Virus record (IMG/VR): IMGVR_UViG_3300009194_000010
Span: 1 to 64,000 of that record
Length of the DNA: 64,000 nucleotides
DNA from: a virus
Strand: one strand, 5' to 3'
In this document: positions 1,866-18,505 of the stretch, piece after piece
Numbering within the stretch: the first letter of the stretch is position 1
How the letters are laid out: the number at the start of each line of letters is the position of its first letter
Position numbers and translations under genes: made by a program
The notes under the pieces: model-generated
What the model saw: the letters and a program-made list of their open reading frames with translations, nothing else
The model's database searches: none
Told to the model about the DNA's origin: nothing

Positions 1866-3770
1866 TTAGTACAGACGACCGGAGCCGGTGACACCACCGT
1901 AACCGCCACCACCGTACTGCGGAGTCGGACCGCCGTAGTTCATGGTGGCAGTGTGGCTGACAGCGTACTGGTTGACCATGGTGTTACCCATGAACCGCTG
2001 GCCGCCCATCACGGAGCTCACGTTCTCGAATTCCACGTGGACGCCGGCACCGCGGGTAGCGATGTCGAGGGCCTCGATGAACTCGGGAGTCAGCATCAGG
2101 CGAACCGCACGCCCAGTGATCTTCAGACCCTTGCTCAGGAACTGGCGTTCCATCTGCTCGCGAACCTGCAGGCGCTGCTCGGGGCGCATGGACAGATCGC
2201 AGTAGGTCTTGTACCACTCGTCGAAGGTCTTGGTGTCTCCCTGAGTGAGGTTCAGCATCGCGACCACATCCAGGTCACGGATGTCACGCTTCTCGCCGTC
2301 ATCCCCGGTGTAGTACCCGAGGTGGACTTCGGTGTCCATGGACACCACGATCGGCGTCTTGTGGTGGTCGAAGTTGGCAGAGAACCGCTGGCCGGTCAGG
2401 TTGTTGGCTGCGGCAACCAGACGATCGGTTGCTGCCTGACGGTTGACGGTATCCAGCGCGATGTCGATGAAGTAGTTCTCGATCGCACTGTTCTCACCCA
2501 CCGGATCCACGTCGATCATGAACGACGGGTTCGGACGAACCAGTTGCTGCATGTACTGCACGAAGTCCTGCTCGGAGAACTTGTCCGACTTGACTTCCAC
2601 CTTCTGACCCGCCGGGGTCTTGTAGGCCAGAGCGCCCACGTCCTTGAGGTCCACACCCTTGCTACCGATGGACGGCAGGAAGGTGCGCAGCCAGCTGGAA
2701 CCGGCAGTCACACGGAAGGCGTTGCTGATCGCCAGCAGGTACAGTTCCGGAGTCCGCATCTGGATCCAGTCCGCCTGGTCCACCGAGGTGATGACGAAGG
2801 ACGGATGGAAGATGGGCTGCGGCTGGGTCTGCTGTTGACCCCAACCCATCTGCTGCGGCTGCTCCGGCTGACCGACGTAGTCCAGATTCACGAAACCGGA
2901 CACGGAGTTGAACTCGGTCTCAACCTCGTAGAAGTCCTCCTCAGCCTTCTGGTTGTTGAGCTGCCGGCCCATGGAGACCACCAGGTCAGCACGGATCGGA
3001 TGGCCGACCAGGTTCTCGACTTGGTCGCGGGTGGTGTCGATGCGAGCGGTCAGACGCTCGTCCGGACGCTTGATGTACTCCACAGAGAAGGGGATCTCGC
3101 CAGTCAGACGGGCGATGATGTCGTCGCAGGAGTTGACGGAGGAAACCAGCAGACGGGTGGTGTCTTCGGAATCCTTGAAGTCGAAATCCGACGGCACCAG
3201 GAGCGGGCCGGAGTCGACAACCTTCGCCTGCTGGTCACCCTTGACGCGCTTGAGGAACGCGTCAATGCGGTTCCAGTACACGTCGTTATACACGTCCTGC
3301 GGCAGGGAGGGGATTTCCACCCGCTGGGTGTAGTGGCCGGTAGCCACGGTGGCGATGCGCGGCGGCAGACGAATGCCGTCGCTGTCCAGGATCAGCGGAC
3401 GCACTGCGATGTGCAGCACGTTGTTCAGCTTGATGGTCTTGACCACCAGGATGGAGGAGAGACCCACGCGGTGCTGATCCCGGTCGAAACGGACGAGCTC
3501 GAAGTCGTCGGTCAGACCCTGGGTGGCCAGGGCTTCGGCCTCGGCTTCACGAAGCGAACGCAGGGCTTCGGCGCTGCGACCTTCGCTACGATCGAAGCTG
3601 CCCGAGCGACGGAACATCTGGTTCACGGCGCCCATGCCCACGGGACCCTCACGCTCAGCACCTGCCTGAGACTGGTTCTGCTGTTCACCCGGACCGTAGC
3701 CGTAGCGGGTCTGCTCACCCTGCTGCTGCTCGCCACCGATGTTTTTCTTGCTGGTGTCATGGATAGCCAT
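1866..3770 (-). CDS. chmA: Probable chimallin-like phage nucleus shell protein (ChmA)
   Basis: 634 aa, close to the length I recall for 201phi2-1 gp105 (about 630). The N-terminal 60 residues are Gln/Gly-rich and look disordered. A long mixed alpha/beta body follows, interrupted near residue 290 by a Pro/Gln-rich loop (QPEQPQQMGWGQQQTQPQP). The C-terminus is a Gly/Tyr-rich tail. Flexible tails are what link chimallin protomers in the known lattice. It is next to the RNA polymerase beta-prime fragment, as phiKZ gp54 is next to gp55. The ATG follows GAAAGGA. In the family the protein self-assembles into a shell round replicating phage DNA. Assignment rests on length, architecture and context; I could not align it. 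The alternative is another abundant structural protein. Confidence 0.75.
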   Translation of the reverse strand: MAIHDTSKKNIGGEQQQGEQTRYGYGPGEQQNQSQAGAEREGPVGMGAVNQMFRRSGSFDRSEGRSAEALRSLREAEAEALATQGLTDDFELVRFDRDQHRVGLSSILVVKTIKLNNVLHIAVRPLILDSDGIRLPPRIATVATGHYTQRVEIPSLPQDVYNDVYWNRIDAFLKRVKGDQQAKVVDSGPLLVPSDFDFKDSEDTTRLLVSSVNSCDDIIARLTGEIPFSVEYIKRPDERLTARIDTTRDQVENLVGHPIRADLVVSMGRQLNNQKAEEDFYEVETEFNSVSGFVNLDYVGQPEQPQQMGWGQQQTQPQPIFHPSFVITSVDQADWIQMRTPELYLLAISNAFRVTAGSSWLRTFLPSIGSKGVDLKDVGALAYKTPAGQKVEVKSDKFSEQDFVQYMQQLVRPNPSFMIDVDPVGENSAIENYFIDIALDTVNRQAATDRLVAAANNLTGQRFSANFDHHKTPIVVSMDTEVHLGYYTGDDGEKRDIRDLDVVAMLNLTQGDTKTFDEWYKTYCDLSMRPEQRLQVREQMERQFLSKGLKITGRAVRLMLTPEFIEALDIATRGAGVHVEFENVSSVMGGQRFMGNTMVNQYAVSHTATMNYGGPTPQYGGGGYGGVTGSGRLY

Positions 3771-3814
3771 GGTGTCACATCCTTCTTTCGGAATGGTGTC
3801 TTACAAGAGAGATA

Positions 3815-3827
3815 GCGCTATATCTCG
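3815..3827 (-). promoter_or_regulatory. Putative promoter of the shell-protein gene
   Basis: On the minus strand CGAGATATAGCGC contains the GATATAG box shared with other start regions of this window, about 50 nt upstream of the shell-protein start. It overlaps an inverted repeat (GAGATAGCGCTATATCTC), so it could also be an operator. Confidence 0.4.
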
Positions 3828-3862
3828 TTTCGGTTGCTACAGGTCTTACACTCGCACCTAAG

Positions 3863-3985
3863 TGATATAGATGCTAAGTTATTTGGAATCCATTCCCATA
3901 CGCTGCGATATATGGGCATAGGGAATGGGCCCAACCTCTATGGAGGGGCGAAGGTGTATGCTCTACATATGATACACACTTCAGT
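3863..3985 (+). ncRNA. Candidate small structured RNA between divergent genes
   Basis: A TGATATAGATG box at 3863-3873 points rightward into about 110 nt with no credible plus-strand ORF. The stretch can form three successive stem-loops: CCATTCCC/GGGAATGG (about 3890-3928), CCTC/GAGG, and GTGTAT/ATACAC, followed by an AT-rich run. The last hairpin could instead end the minus-strand gene at 3991, so the RNA is only a candidate. Confidence 0.35.
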
Positions 3986-3990
3986 AATTA

Positions 3991-4401
3991 TTATTCTTCG
4001 TAATCTCCATTCAGGACTTTCTCCACGACGAGTTCACCTTCGACGTGATACGTCTGAACACGCATTGCCACCAACGTATAGCCTTTGTCGGTGATCTCGG
4101 TGACCCGTTTGGTCACTGACGCGAGGAGCGTGTCTACATTATTGTCCTCGTCAGTTAAAACTTCCTGACGGGGATACGGGGAGTGCGGCGTCTCGCCTTC
4201 GACGTGGGTTTCGTATTCGATGACCCCCACCCAGACGTCACGCCCTTCCTTCTGCTTCCACCGGTAATTGTGGTCGGCTTGTTCGTCGACCAGCTTGTTG
4301 CGAACCTCTTCTCCCTGACGCGGCTGCGACTGGCGAATCAGGTTCTTCTCCACTTCATGTAATGCCGCAATGGCATCACGGACTGCTTTGAGTTCGTTCA
4401 T
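3991..4401 (-). CDS. Hypothetical protein, 136 aa
   Basis: The start is set at ATG 4401 after AGGGAGAG rather than the longer frame. The N-terminal third is helical and charged (ELKAVRDAIAALHEVEKNL). The rest looks like a compact beta-rich domain ending in an acidic tail. No recognised family. It stands alone, divergent from the gene at 4493 across a short promoter region. Confidence 0.75.
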   Translation of the reverse strand: MNELKAVRDAIAALHEVEKNLIRQSQPRQGEEVRNKLVDEQADHNYRWKQKEGRDVWVGVIEYETHVEGETPHSPYPRQEVLTDEDNNVDTLLASVTKRVTEITDKGYTLVAMRVQTYHVEGELVVEKVLNGDYEE

Positions 4402-4452
4402 GGTCTCTCTCCCTCTGGGGTAAGCAGTGTTCTCTGCCTCACTGCACCACGA

Positions 4453-4466
4453 TGATATAGATGTCA
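4453..4466 (+). promoter_or_regulatory. Putative promoter/operator box TGATATAGATGTCA
   Basis: TGATATAG fits an extended -10 (TGnTAT) and lies about 30 nt upstream of the start at 4493. The same 14-mer recurs exactly at 46233-46246. It is nearly palindromic, so a protein-binding operator is the alternative. Confidence 0.45.
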
Positions 4467-4492
4467 TTTACACTTCAATGCAGGGTTCTCTC

Positions 4493-5593
4493 ATGCATGA
4501 ACTATTTAACCGCCCTCCTAGCCGCTTTAACGGCGCCTATCGTTTTCCGGAATTACCCTACCTGCAACGGACGTATGCCCGTCAATTAGACGATGTAAAA
4601 AGCTATTACCGGCGCTATCCTAAACAGGTGGACAGTCGTAACCCCTTAGCCAATATCCTGTTGCACATTCCCCGTCGGTGGGACCTGGATGACCGGCGTT
4701 ATGTCCGCTTTGTTGAAGACACCGCCAAGGGTCTGATTCGGGTGTTCAATTTCACCGACAGCACCCATAAGGGAAAAGTTCATGAAGGGGGTATCACCTT
4801 AGGTACCAAGACCGATGAGATTGTAATCTCCTCCTTTGAAGATTTCGATGTGGGGAAAGCCTCACGGGATTGGCGGACGTGGGCCGCTTACCGCTATTTA
4901 TATCACACGCGGATTGATTTAGGGCTTCCTGTCCTGAACAATAGCAGTCCTGGTAAAGGTTGGGGTGTCGGGGTTATCAATATCCCGATGCTGGCGCTGC
5001 AGTACCGTTACTGGCTGAAGTCACAAGCTGAGCGAGGTAGCGAGCAATCCGATACCGTATACCGCTTTGTGGGGAGTATGGTTCTTCCCAATACCCTCGA
5101 GAGTTATCTGGATGTGGCATTCTTTAACCGCCTAGCACGTCAGTCACGTGGGATTGGCATGCCACGTTTCCCAGTACCTCATCCTTTCTATCTGGCGGAC
5201 TATTCCTCCCGAGTGGATGGGTTGGGGAAAAAGATTCTCGAGACACAGATGCACCGCAATGCCGATATAGAACAGTTGCCCTTCAGCATCCCGGTATTGG
5301 TCAAAGATAACCTGACAGACGTCATGGCCATTCCCCGAGATCCGGTCACACGGCATAACGACTGGGCGTTACAACTCGCCCGATTGCCTTATGTGCGCTA
5401 CATTGTGGAAGCGACAGTAGAACATGGTCGTGGGGATCGCCACTATACCAACGAGGTCTACAGCAGCCTGATTGATGCCAGTTACGATCGGATATTCTCC
5501 GGTATCGGGTCACCAACGGCGGTGCAACATTACCGTGAAGAGATCCGTAAACTGATCGGATTGATCGAAGAGCGCGGACACGGTTGGGCATAA
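4493..5593 (+). CDS. Hypothetical protein, 366 aa
   Basis: Start chosen at ATG 4493 (MHELFNRPP), 12 nt after an AGGG; an in-frame ATG at 4478 and a longer frame from 4427 are possible but would overlap the promoter box. It is a soluble-looking, Arg/Tyr-rich mixed alpha/beta protein with no transmembrane segment and no recognisable catalytic motif. It is a single-gene transcription unit with its own promoter box and terminator, between minus-strand genes. Function unknown. Confidence 0.8.
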   Translation: MHELFNRPPSRFNGAYRFPELPYLQRTYARQLDDVKSYYRRYPKQVDSRNPLANILLHIPRRWDLDDRRYVRFVEDTAKGLIRVFNFTDSTHKGKVHEGGITLGTKTDEIVISSFEDFDVGKASRDWRTWAAYRYLYHTRIDLGLPVLNNSSPGKGWGVGVINIPMLALQYRYWLKSQAERGSEQSDTVYRFVGSMVLPNTLESYLDVAFFNRLARQSRGIGMPRFPVPHPFYLADYSSRVDGLGKKILETQMHRNADIEQLPFSIPVLVKDNLTDVMAIPRDPVTRHNDWALQLARLPYVRYIVEATVEHGRGDRHYTNEVYSSLIDASYDRIFSGIGSPTAVQHYREEIRKLIGLIEERGHGWA

Positions 5594-13008: not shown

Positions 13009-13806
13009 ATGAACCCCATCACAAAAGCCATGGACGAGATCCAGTTCTCGATTCCACGGGAAATTCTCAATCAGGTCTTCATTACGCAGGATCTGCAGTT
13101 CTGTAATAACATGGTCTCGCTGGAAACTAGAATACGCGAGCAGGTCCTAGACCCGCGTGTACTGGTGGATCTGGACCTGCATGGGGGGACCGAAGCGTTT
13201 ATCCCACTTGACAGTCCGGTGCGGACCGAACAAGCCGATCCCTATACTGTCATCTACCATATTCCGGATGAAGTGGTGCAAAACCGTCCCATTGTTCAGG
13301 TCTTTTCCGTCCACTTTGCGATCCTTGGGTATCAGAATGCGGGGATGGCCCTACACTATACCGAATCCCCCATGGCGGCCGAAACCCGTCGGGTGTTGGA
13401 CAGCGCGATGCGGGTCCCGCCGGCGATGACGTCTTACCTGAACTTGATTGCCCACAACACCGTCATGGCCCGTTACGTATACCTGCCTTACCGCACCGCA
13501 TTCATGCGTGTTCGGTTGGGGAACGATAACGCCCTGAGCCATATTCGTCCGCAGTCGTTCCCAGACTTCGCGCAACTTTGTGTGTTGGCGGTTAAGGCTT
13601 ACATCTACAATCGGATGTACATCGCCATTGACCAAGGGCAGCTGTCTGGCGGTCAGATGCTCGGGGCGTTCAAAGAGATGGTCATGAACTACGCCGATGC
13701 CGATCAGATGTATCGGGATTATCTGCGTCGTTGGAAGAAAATTAGCGTGTTTAATGACGCTGAAGCCAACAGAAGACATATAAGAACAATAGTCGGGGGG
13801 CCCTAA
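13009..13806 (+). CDS. Conserved-type unknown protein, 265 aa, with recoded 3' end
   Basis: AGGAGCTTCTTGA precedes ATG 13009. Mixed alpha/beta protein without motifs I recognise; a phage structural or assembly protein is possible. The last 18 codons (13750-13806) encode FNDAEANRRHIRTIVGGP using AT-rich codons (AGA, ATA). Nearly the same peptide is encoded again at 14940-14993 with the GC-rich codons usual in this genome. The natural reading is that insertion of the endonuclease cassette displaced the original end of the gene and supplied a recoded replacement, leaving the protein intact. Homing endonucleases usually target conserved genes, which argues that this gene matters to the phage. Confidence 0.85.
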   Translation: MNPITKAMDEIQFSIPREILNQVFITQDLQFCNNMVSLETRIREQVLDPRVLVDLDLHGGTEAFIPLDSPVRTEQADPYTVIYHIPDEVVQNRPIVQVFSVHFAILGYQNAGMALHYTESPMAAETRRVLDSAMRVPPAMTSYLNLIAHNTVMARYVYLPYRTAFMRVRLGNDNALSHIRPQSFPDFAQLCVLAVKAYIYNRMYIAIDQGQLSGGQMLGAFKEMVMNYADADQMYRDYLRRWKKISVFNDAEANRRHIRTIVGGP

Positions 13807-13825
13807 TGAAATAGGGACAGACAAA

Positions 13826-13852
13826 AGAGAGTTCGCCAGCGGCGAACTCTCT
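13826..13852 (+). terminator. Strong stem-loop, followed by TTATG
   Basis: 12-bp perfect stem AGAGAGTTCGCC/GGCGAACTCTCT with a three-base loop, then TTATG. It ends the 13009 gene inside the cassette and may also end the convergent endonuclease transcript. Confidence 0.85.
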
Positions 13853-13857
13853 TTATG

Positions 13858-14880
13858 TTAATCAACATAAAACCAATCCTTGTATTCTTCAGTGTTGCCA
13901 TTAATCCAACGATGTACTGTAGAAAAATTAAGGCCCAAACTACGCGCTGCGTCTCTTACGCTCGTATAAACAACCCCATTGATACATACTTTACGGGGCG
14001 TTGCTCCTGCATTACTGATTTTTCTGGCCTTGCTCATATTTTCCCTACGGGTGTCAGAAAAAACCACACCCTTATATGAAACTAAAGCCAATGAATTGCG
14101 TGCATCGGGGGAACTATTAAACAGTTGTTTTGTTTCCCAGTTAACTTCTAGAAGATACTGCTCAATTTGGTATGCGTGTTCTCTATTCTTTACCATGAAA
14201 CACGATGCTTTGATTAATGGATCTTCATTGTACGCTGTTTGTAAATTATAATTTTGGTGTTTATTTCTTTTAAGTGCGTGTCGGTGCGTTATTAAACGAG
14301 TATATAGGTTGGATGTGCTACCGATATAAAACTGCTCTGTTTTGGGGTGGTATATCACATACACCCCCGGTATTTTAGATCCAAAACATACGTCCTCAGT
14401 TACATTATCTAGACCTTCAACCCCATACAGAGAAAGTTCGTCTAATGTAATAAGTTCTAAGAACTTTTCGTTATCTTTCTCAGGCGGGACACCTAAACGT
14501 ATTGTGGGGTCCGTATCGCTTTGTAAAGCTACAGTTTTAGCTTTCTCTGATATTTCCTCATCGGGTACCAAACTACCGACTATTGGATTTAGAGATCTTC
14601 CTTCCTTAACAAAATACTCAATTAAAGCATTCTTTATTTTCTGACGATCCTCTTTCTCTTTTACAACATAATACACGTGGTATAAATCTTTAGAATCATT
14701 GTAAATTTCTTGTAGAATACGGTTATGGTGTTGGTTCCTGCTTAGAAGCCAATAATGTTTGTATACACTTTTATTAGGGTTGATCGAAGTACCTACATAA
14801 ACCTTACGTGTTTTGACATGGTGTATCACATAAACCACACGTTCATGTTCGTTGTGTTTGAACTCGACTTTACAAAACAT
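13858..14880 (-). CDS. Free-standing GIY-YIG homing endonuclease with two GIY-YIG modules
   Basis: 340 aa, ATG after GGAAGGT. The second module (about residues 167-250) has GVYVIYHPKTEQFYIGST, a conserved Arg in SNLYTRLITH, and a downstream Glu, as in active GIY-YIG nucleases. An N-terminal module (VVYVIHH...VYVGTS, residues 15-32) has the two strands but not the expected Arg and looks degenerate. The C-terminus has a NUMOD3-like SDTRRENMSKA and a NUMOD1-like DNA-binding repeat (SVRDAARSLGLNFSTVHRWI). It is AT-rich compared with neighbours, convergent with the gene it invaded, and not inside an intron. It would cut phage genomes lacking the cassette and spread by recombination repair. Confidence 0.92.
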   Translation of the reverse strand: MFCKVEFKHNEHERVVYVIHHVKTRKVYVGTSINPNKSVYKHYWLLSRNQHHNRILQEIYNDSKDLYHVYYVVKEKEDRQKIKNALIEYFVKEGRSLNPIVGSLVPDEEISEKAKTVALQSDTDPTIRLGVPPEKDNEKFLELITLDELSLYGVEGLDNVTEDVCFGSKIPGVYVIYHPKTEQFYIGSTSNLYTRLITHRHALKRNKHQNYNLQTAYNEDPLIKASCFMVKNREHAYQIEQYLLEVNWETKQLFNSSPDARNSLALVSYKGVVFSDTRRENMSKARKISNAGATPRKVCINGVVYTSVRDAARSLGLNFSTVHRWINGNTEEYKDWFYVD

Positions 14881-14939
14881 ATACCTTCCCCATTTTTCAG
14901 TTCTGTGTATGTGATTGGTAACGCTAGTTTAAAATTTCC

Positions 14940-14996
14940 TTCAACGACCCGGAAGCCCATCGTCGTCACATCCGCACCATCGTGGGTGGGCCGTAA
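14940..14996 (+). pseudogene. Displaced original 3' end of the 13009 gene
   Basis: Reads FNDPEAHRRHIRTIVGGP then TAA: 16 of 18 residues match the end of the 13009 product, but 19 of 57 nucleotides differ, mostly at silent positions. Stops occur in frame just upstream, so it is not translated as part of a gene. It is followed by its own terminator at 15015. Confidence 0.85.
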
Positions 14997-15014: not shown

Positions 15015-15038
15015 AGGTCGTCCCCTAGGGGACGACCT
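15015..15038 (+). terminator. Stem-loop, probably the original terminator of the 13009 gene
   Basis: 11-bp perfect stem AGGTCGTCCCC/GGGGACGACCT with a two-base gap, followed by GTTTATG on the plus strand. On the minus strand it would serve the gene at 15050. Confidence 0.8.
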
Positions 15039-17515: not shown

Positions 17516-18457
17516 TTAGAGAACCAGACCATCGCCGGTCAGGTTATCGTCGATGTCCACCCGAGTACGACGCTGGCGGTAATTGCCCAGTGCCTTGTTG
17601 AGCTCGGTCTGACGTTCGGTCAGGTGGGTGAAGGTGTCCTCCACATCCGCCGTGTTGATCACGAAGTGGAGTTGTTCGGCCAGGCCAGAAGAGCTGCGCG
17701 GATACCCCACGGTAGCGTAGTACGGCGTACCGAACGGGTTGTCCTTGTTTGGGTCCTCGTACAGGGAAGCGATTGAGATAGGTTCCACCTGTTTGGATGC
17801 TTCCTGGCGGGAGTCGAAGATAGCCAGCGCTGACAGCTGCGGCGTCACCCCGGGAGCCACCTTCTGGTACTGTACCCAGTTGGTCAGGTCCTTGGTGTCA
17901 AGTTCCTGGTTGTTCTGGCTGGTGAGTTCCCCCAGTGCTTCCAAGACGAAGAGGACCTCATCGTCGATCATCGACCGGGACACGCCAGCGGTGTTTTCAT
18001 GATAGGCCATGATCACCGGCTGGCCTGAGACCGCGGAGATGGACTCCAGAGACTTCAGGGTATTGATGGTGTTGGTCACCGCGATAGAGCTGTCGTCAGC
18101 CCCCACCACGATCACCACCGCGGGACAACCACGTTCCAGCAGGTTCTTCTCGATCAGCGGTCCGATCACTGAACCACTACCACCGGCACCGGAAAACATC
18201 ACGATGTTGAAATCACCGGGAGGGAAACGGTCGAGAATGGTTTCGACTTCCCCGATGATCGGCTCATAGTTCTCGCGGCGGTTCTTACCACTACCATCCA
18301 GACCGGCGATGTAATGGCAGATGGTGGGGTCCAGTCCTTCAGTACGGTTGGATTCGCTGGTATCGATGAAACACGCGTCGAGATGCTCGCTCATGATGCG
18401 CTGGGCGAGGTTGGTACCACAACCACCTGCCGCGTAAACTCGGGTTTTAACGGTCAT
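17516..18457 (-). CDS. phuZ: PhuZ-like phage tubulin/FtsZ homologue
   Basis: 313 aa from ATG 18457 (MTVKTRVYAAGG), about the 315 residues of known PhuZ proteins. The start at 18496 is rejected because GAGAGG lies before the shorter one. AGGCGTN (residues 10-16) is the first nucleotide-binding loop and SGAGGSGSV (89-97) is the tubulin signature G-loop, here GAGGSGS instead of the usual GGGTGSG. The C-terminal tail is acidic (DIDDNLTGDG), as in PhuZ where the tail mediates filament contacts. In the family, PhuZ forms a dynamic spindle that centres the phage nucleus and carries capsids. It lies downstream of the 18506 gene. Confidence 0.9.
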   Translation of the reverse strand: MTVKTRVYAAGGCGTNLAQRIMSEHLDACFIDTSESNRTEGLDPTICHYIAGLDGSGKNRRENYEPIIGEVETILDRFPPGDFNIVMFSGAGGSGSVIGPLIEKNLLERGCPAVVIVVGADDSSIAVTNTINTLKSLESISAVSGQPVIMAYHENTAGVSRSMIDDEVLFVLEALGELTSQNNQELDTKDLTNWVQYQKVAPGVTPQLSALAIFDSRQEASKQVEPISIASLYEDPNKDNPFGTPYYATVGYPRSSSGLAEQLHFVINTADVEDTFTHLTERQTELNKALGNYRQRRTRVDIDDNLTGDGLVL

Positions 18458-18505
18458 TCTCACTACCTCTCGTGTGGGTGAAACTACATTAGACATACCG
18501 TCGGG

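Follow-up and report, generated by a model that had tools for sequence, protein, structure and literature searches.

As judged from codon usage, homologues and sequence context, a conserved gene of a phiKZ-like jumbo phage has had its 3' end replaced by a largely synonymous foreign copy, and its native end has been left stranded behind a homing endonuclease gene (HEG) of the GIY-YIG type. The locus lies in a stretch of 64,000 nucleotides, called the window below, which makes up positions 1 to 64,000 of the 69.8-kb virus record IMGVR_UViG_3300009194_000010, and the affected gene encodes a DUF7484 protein. The arrangement is very probably a splicing-free homing cassette, a mobile unit that would consist of a recoded 3' end of the target gene, a hairpin and an antisense GIY-YIG endonuclease gene (Table 1). 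This interpretation is carried by the layout of the locus, the identity of the native end, the codon usage which the foreign end shares with the HEG, and the recurrence of the layout in other records.

An earlier sequence-only reading of the window had noticed that the last 18 codons of the DUF7484 gene occur twice, with nearly all differences silent, and this proved exact. The copy attached to the gene (13750-13806) encodes FNDAEANRRHIRTIVGGP and the copy stranded beyond the HEG (14940-14996) encodes FNDPEAHRRHIRTIVGGP, each followed by a stop codon. Sixteen of the 18 residues are the same and 19 of 57 bases differ, 15 of these 19 differences being silent. Because the match goes on upstream for about three codons (KIS), the duplicated piece comprises approximately 21 codons. 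In a flank-to-flank peptide comparison the duplication obtained a score of 87. When ordinary phage genes were scored likewise as a control, 89 of 90 stayed at or below 47, and the single outlier (97) came from two adjacent genes with like endings, which are probably tandem paralogues. The end duplication in the window is far above chance, and the possibility that the two ends would align no better than chance with homologues can be dismissed. Adjacent genes with similar terminal peptides (KQRVLKFFNL and RQRVFNYFNV), probably tandem paralogous genes, were seen at approximately 3670-5043 of record L147.

To decide which of the two ends is native, codon z scores were calculated with the codon usage of the 47 other genes of the window as reference. 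The attached end, rich in AT-rich codons, had a z score of -6.2, below all 1696 segments of the same length, and the codon usage of the HEG fitted it by about 10 nats better than that of the genome. The stranded end was genome-like (z +2.2 to +2.4), with a HEG versus genome fit of about -9 nats. The codon break is sharp: other segments along the target gene gave values between -1.8 and +1.3, the last one -4.0. In 19 cassette-free homologues with similar ends, AGR accounted for none of 46 Arg codons and ATA for none of 34 Ile codons at this end, whereas in the attached ends of the three DUF7484 carriers (the window and records L003 and L004) AGR made up 6 of 10 Arg and ATA 4 of 5 Ile codons. 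The silent-codon distance to the native ends, determined on codons for the same residue, was 43% for the stranded end (native range 38-69%), and the attached ends in the window (73%) and in L003 (84%) lay above every native end compared.

The context of the gene points in the same direction. In the cassette-free phages D6 and L016-L018 the gene leads directly into a native-type end and a hairpin, as had been anticipated, and in other cassette-free homologues the native-type end runs into the next gene. D6 and L018 have the same order of stop codon, A-run and hairpin that follows the stranded end of the window, where the terminator noted earlier at 15015 is present (-27.2 kcal/mol, z -5.6). Since codon usage, homologues and context agree, the attached end must have arrived with the endonuclease, and the native end was displaced; by these criteria the last 21 or so codons of the target gene are cassette-derived. 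The proposal that the cassette brought its own recoded 3' end is thus borne out by the grouping of the attached end with the HEG and of the stranded end with the genome, and the AT-rich end is not ancestral, as cassette-free relatives carry an end of the CGY/ATY type.

Table 1. Features of the DUF7484 locus in the window
Feature	Coordinates	Strand	Basis or remark
Target gene DUF7484 (PF24302, phrog_3179)	13009..13806	+	intact open reading frame (ORF) of 265 aa; PHIKZ042 homologue
Recoded (attached) 3' end, KISVFNDAEANRRHIRTIVGGP and stop, AGA/ATA-rich	13738..13806	+	codon usage, native homologues
Cassette hairpin between gene stop and HEG stop	13824..13854	both	terminator-like in either direction
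GIY-YIG homing endonuclease gene (HEG), 340 aa	13858..14880	-	convergent to target gene
C-terminal I-TevI-type DNA-binding / NUMOD-like helix-turn-helix, predicted	13912..13998	-	PF20987, E 1.5e-4
Catalytic GIY-YIG domain	14146..14367	-	match over cut-off
Second, N-terminal GIY-YIG-like repeat	14611..14838	-	sub-threshold match, 16.4 bits
Spacer before HEG start, 50 bp	14881..14930		putative promoter and ribosome binding site; GGGGAAGG shortly before ATG
Displaced (stranded) native 3' end, KISFNDPEAHRRHIRTIVGGP and stop, no start codon of its own	14931..14996	+	codon usage, native homologues
Ancestral terminator-like hairpin of the target gene	15015..15038	+	position as in cassette-free D6

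These data also bear on another origin, in which insertion of the HEG would have duplicated about 60 bp of the gene end, with later drift of both copies. The insert is indeed flanked by a duplication, but it is the free copy that is conserved and genome-like, whereas the constrained gene copy carries the silent changes and the codon usage of the HEG. This is the reverse of what drift predicts, and the same polarity was found again in records L032, L067 and L066 (see below). Duplication in place is, in our estimate, very improbable.

The homing cassette would move as follows. When a cassette-free phage infects a cell together with a carrier, its native gene end would be cut by the endonuclease. 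Repair would copy the cassette in, with homology provided on the left by the gene body and on the right by the native end that lies downstream of the cut. Completed by the synonymous end of the cassette, the recipient gene would stay functional and would probably no longer be cut, and the native end would be pushed behind the endonuclease gene as a non-coding remnant. The recoding need not be selected; it may stem from a diverged, AT-rich donor lineage. In the explanation built on this, to which we give a little less than even weight, the AT-rich end comes passively from the diverged phage in which the cassette arose, and any resistance to cutting would be a by-product. It agrees with the AT-rich codon usage common to attached ends and endonucleases, with the finding that the attached ends of the three DUF7484 carriers differ from each other at 19-21 of 57 bases, and with the report that recipients of free-standing HEGs are resistant through an alternative donor sequence that replaces the cleavage sequence (PMC12724721). 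On the other hand, a native end of the AGA/ATA type was not found among the 19 close cassette-free phages, and the peptide is nearly unchanged, yet in silent codons the attached ends in the window and in L003 are farther from the natives than any native end compared. A passive donor end is compatible with the homing cassette in everything except the cause of the recoding.

The endonuclease of the window matched PF01541 in two stretches (E 1.1e-9) and the homing endonuclease family phrog_314 (E 1.5e-14). Its catalytic domain aligns weakly to I-TevI (1mk0), and residues Y174, Y185, G187, R195, E240 and N255 are invariant across the three enzymes encoded at this site (window, L003 and L004); by this domain, with its catalytic Tyr, Arg and Glu, the protein is classed as a GIY-YIG homing endonuclease. 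The N-terminal GIY-YIG-like repeat is apparently degenerate and seems to have lost the active-site Arg and Glu. Such a repeat was also observed in L003 and L004, and L032 may have a similar one. The C-terminal PF20987 match reached 22 bits in the window, below the cut-off of 27, and was above it in L003 (28.6 bits), L067 and L070. The enzymes at the same site are 58% (L003) and 34% (L004) identical to that of the window. A search of viral_contigs with the window protein as single query gave no matches, and a profile made from the three proteins matched only L003 and L004. The motif TATATTAT, which we take to resemble the phiKZ early-promoter motif, is found just upstream of the HEG starts in L003, L004 and L067 but is missing from the window, so that it may stand there by chance. 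Since the early-promoter-like TATATTAY likewise has no occurrence in the window, we do not propose a promoter common to these HEGs.

The combination of a GIY-YIG enzyme with an I-TevI-type C-terminus is typical for phage introns, which speaks for a spliced element, such as a group I intron, whose true last exon would be 14931-14996. However, no Rfam intron match was obtained over the locus, the HEG is antisense to the gene, and the gene is already complete, with stop codon and hairpin ahead of the HEG. A spliced element is hardly conceivable here.

The arrangement is not unique to the window locus. In L003, whose target gene is 85% identical, it is complete, with the stranded end 1.2 kb downstream and a spacer before the HEG start of similar length. 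L004 (81%) has the HEG and a 7-codon remnant (ACC ATC ACC GGT GCA CCG TAA) before the ancestral A-run and hairpin. In the remote lineage of L032 (38%) the same gene is accompanied by a convergent GIY-YIG HEG of different build, with one recognisable GIY-YIG domain in the middle of the protein and a NUMOD1-like C-terminus. Its stranded end, at the contig edge, reads SMRRFISLLSGGNR and its attached end SMTRFISLLSGGTR; 12 of 14 residues are the same and 22 of 42 bases differ, including three Ser AGY/TCG swaps. The hairpin between gene and HEG, which in the window folds at -26.4 kcal/mol (z -7.6) on the plus and at -25.8 kcal/mol on the minus strand, has counterparts at the same position in L003, L004, L032 and L067. 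No cassette is present at this gene in L011 (76%), L012 and L005 (69%) and L013 (64%), nor in phiKZ, 201phi2-1, FLC9, Noxifer, PS119XW and the other named phages checked. In Psa21 (L058, 27299-30532) a GIY-YIG endonuclease gene was seen approximately 150 bp upstream of the DUF7484 start, without a duplicated gene piece.

To see whether the layout recurs at other genes, GIY-YIG endonucleases were surveyed in 22 related records, which yielded 23 distinct enzymes, or 24 with that of the window; the sample is biased because the records had been picked for carrying DUF7484. Strong gene-end duplications (scores 56-142) were found in six of the 24, namely in the window, L003, L032, L067, L066 and L070. 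In L067 (1001-1930) the end of the gene for the ribonucleotide reductase small subunit (nrdB) has been replaced by a GIY-YIG cassette; the attached end is YMVNLMDAAGEQEVFDM and the stranded one YQVNLMDSHGEQEVFEM, both with stop codon, the HEG is convergent and a hairpin lies in between. In L070 an end of about 36 residues of an SbcC-like gene is duplicated and the convergent HEG abuts the gene stop; the stranded end (FNEHVVIN) is nearer to the end in cassette-free FLC9 (YNEHVTIY) than the attached end (YNKHVEMK) is. High scores were rejected as overlap of the flanks themselves at the HNH_3 endonuclease locus of L088 and in L167, L170 and L193, and as low complexity in L172.

The case in L066 (1336-2115 and 2131-3225) is a mirror-image form at the start of a head-tail joining gene (PF24214). 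Here the first 33 codons of the native sequence, original ATG included, read in frame into a GIY-YIG HEG, and the real gene begins with a recoded, AT-rich version of these codons (z -6.5). A wrong gene start is easily called by annotators at this locus. A scan for NUMOD1 motifs added two gene-start cases, L181 and L209. In a large phage (L181, 975-2520; also L158, L159 and L177) the start of clpP is duplicated around a GIY-YIG HEG, and the cassette is 100% identical over the shared region in the four contigs, which come from different metagenomes. The clpP start reads SSMNLHYYQK in a cassette-free relative, SSMQLHYWEK in the displaced and SGMQLQSWEN in the attached copy, and by this comparison the displaced piece looks native. 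A search for a near-identical empty clpP site by conserved-motif scan gave cassette carriers only. In L209 (12590-13580, minus strand) the start of a thioredoxin-like gene (MKKILYFSA.WC) is duplicated around an HNH-type HEG with a NUMOD1-like end; the clpP, thioredoxin and HNH assignments are putative, read from sequence motifs. In every phage case of the 3' type the HEG is antisense to the gene, with a hairpin of its own in most, and in the gene-start cases a sense HEG follows the displaced native start and forms, in one case, an in-frame fusion with it. A codon polarity as in the window, with the attached copy HEG-like, was found in L032, L067 and L066; the codon tests are individually weak for L032 and L070, with pieces of 14-36 codons, and for L004, with its short piece.

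Recurrence also bears on the possibility that two related phages were joined into a chimera during assembly, in favour of which it can be said that the carriers are all contigs from metagenomes. Against this, the layout is repeated in L003, L032, L067, L066, L070 and L209, the four contigs with the clpP cassette agree in it at 100%, and the cassette has a regular structure of its own. An artefact of this kind is scarcely credible.

Several observations weigh against a homing cassette. Cleavage, homing and resistance by recoding are steps that we infer from sequence. With about 60 bp, the right homology arm would be shorter than the FBA1 fragments in the WHO elements of yeasts, which measure approximately 400 bp (see below). 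Recoding in L004 is weak except for ATA AGG, and the attached end of L070 is fitted no better by HEG than by genome codon usage. The stranded end of L003 is itself codon-atypical (z -2.4) and not simply native; a prior cassette or decay is needed to account for it, and it may represent the end of an earlier cassette, as repeated replacement would leave it. The carriers are without exception uncultured contigs, and no cultured one was found among the phages checked. Finally, no duplication was found at any of 17 scorable loci of HNH_3 endonucleases in the same jumbo phages, and no duplicated gene end at any of eight T4 GIY-YIG loci. Given these loci without duplication, gene-end replacement is one mode among several. 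Likewise, the HEGs of JA29, SURPRISE13, hairong, Moabite, Wadjak 1, Goe14, W16, RPN226, PT1-4, KP27 and Psa21 were without duplication.

The target gene itself was identified with high significance (Pfam E 1.3e-89, PHROG E 6.9e-93). DUF7484 homologues are present in 247 phage records, and for one of them, gp73 of 201phi2-1, identification by mass spectrometry is stated in its record. A PhuZ-type tubulin ORF is located at 17516-18496 of the window, and such an ORF likewise lies near the DUF7484 homologues of D6 and Noxifer.

The sequence-only reading had drawn a parallel with Allomyces atp6. This parallel is apt, and closer still is the WHO element, which puts a new 3' end on FBA1 while the old one stays behind (PMC7282813). 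For these elements of Torulaspora and Lachancea yeasts the same scheme of movement has been proposed, with cleavage data: cutting at FBA1 depends on the allele, and alleles that bear an element resist it (PMC7282813, Coughlan et al. 2020). In both systems the HEG follows a conserved gene with a replaced 3' end, the old 3' end persists as a fragment beyond the HEG, and the host gene is intact with an end allelically different from that of native relatives. Resistance in the phages would, as proposed, also come from allelic sequence differences and not from interruption, and some WHO genes have the opposite orientation too. WHO elements differ in residing at nuclear yeast genes, in their intein-zinc-finger endonucleases, in the fragments of about 400 bp and in their tandem clusters, and their cleavage and allele specificity come from experiment. 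The phage cassettes have GIY-YIG or HNH enzymes, ends of approximately 14-36 codons, single insertions, with no tandem clusters seen among them, and gene-start forms, and are known as sequences. Fungal mitochondrial mobile ORFs, described in Allomyces atp6 and in Glomus atp6, atp9, cox2 and nad3 (PMC3630166), share the C-terminal duplication around an endonuclease ORF with the native end displaced downstream; the inserted end has 64-81% DNA identity with a nearly identical peptide, and the atp9 enzyme is of the GIY-YIG type (PMC3630166). The Glomus elements differ in being mitochondrial and in having the endonuclease ORF within the transcript of the gene, sometimes in phase (atp6, nad3). By analogy, the phage cassette would work like a WHO element or a mobile ORF, and is not a member of those families.

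Among phages, the free-standing Seg and Mob HEGs of T4, which act by intronless homing, lie between genes and cut at a distance of hundreds or thousands of bp (PMC2988022), and recipient resistance is assumed to come from donor sequence that replaces the cut site (PMC12724721). The cassettes resemble them as stand-alone GIY-YIG or HNH genes beside conserved phage genes, outside intron and intein, but differ in being inserted within the gene end and replacing it. The HNH enzyme gp210 of the phiKZ-like phage phiPA3 also comes from a HEG and cuts a conserved gene of relatives, as the window enzyme might; it resides in an intron, and its host gene is protected by that intron and not by a rebuilt end (PMC11620839). 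In the same system 17 silent changes were built into a copy of gp178 so that gp210 would not recognise it (PMC11620839). Inhibition of phiKZ by gp210 through the cutting of a conserved gene (PMC11620839), together with the conserved nature of the targets in the present cases, would suit a stably inherited weapon kept for harming co-infecting relatives and not for homing. The scattered distribution, the differing HEG lineages at one site and the displaced native ends point instead to insertion and spread, and interference as the sole role is unlikely, although the two roles are not exclusive. No phage report of a HEG that replaces a gene end was found in the open-licence literature, which is weak evidence of absence. 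What would be new is the occurrence in phages with GIY-YIG or HNH enzymes and short ends, the layouts of WHO elements and mobile ORFs being already known.

Splicing, by introns or inteins, was thought to be the sole safe way for selfish endonuclease genes to reside in coding sequence until the WHO elements of yeast provided a third class. We think it likely that, in addition to introns and inteins, phages hold a third class of homing element, widespread and as yet without a name, which replaces one gene end with a synonymous copy and at which different endonuclease families arrived independently, at gene ends and at gene starts. If this is true, phage elements with GIY-YIG or HNH enzymes use the same solution at six genes, in both end and start forms, and it would be a general and probably recurrent strategy; the 5' mirror-image form is its least expected part. 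The displaced end is a record of the sequence before insertion, so that the likely target of the endonuclease is written beside its gene. Gene-end replacement would also account for abrupt codon shifts at gene ends and flag misannotated gene starts. It seems to have been overlooked as a means by which selfish genes can reside in needed genes without splicing.
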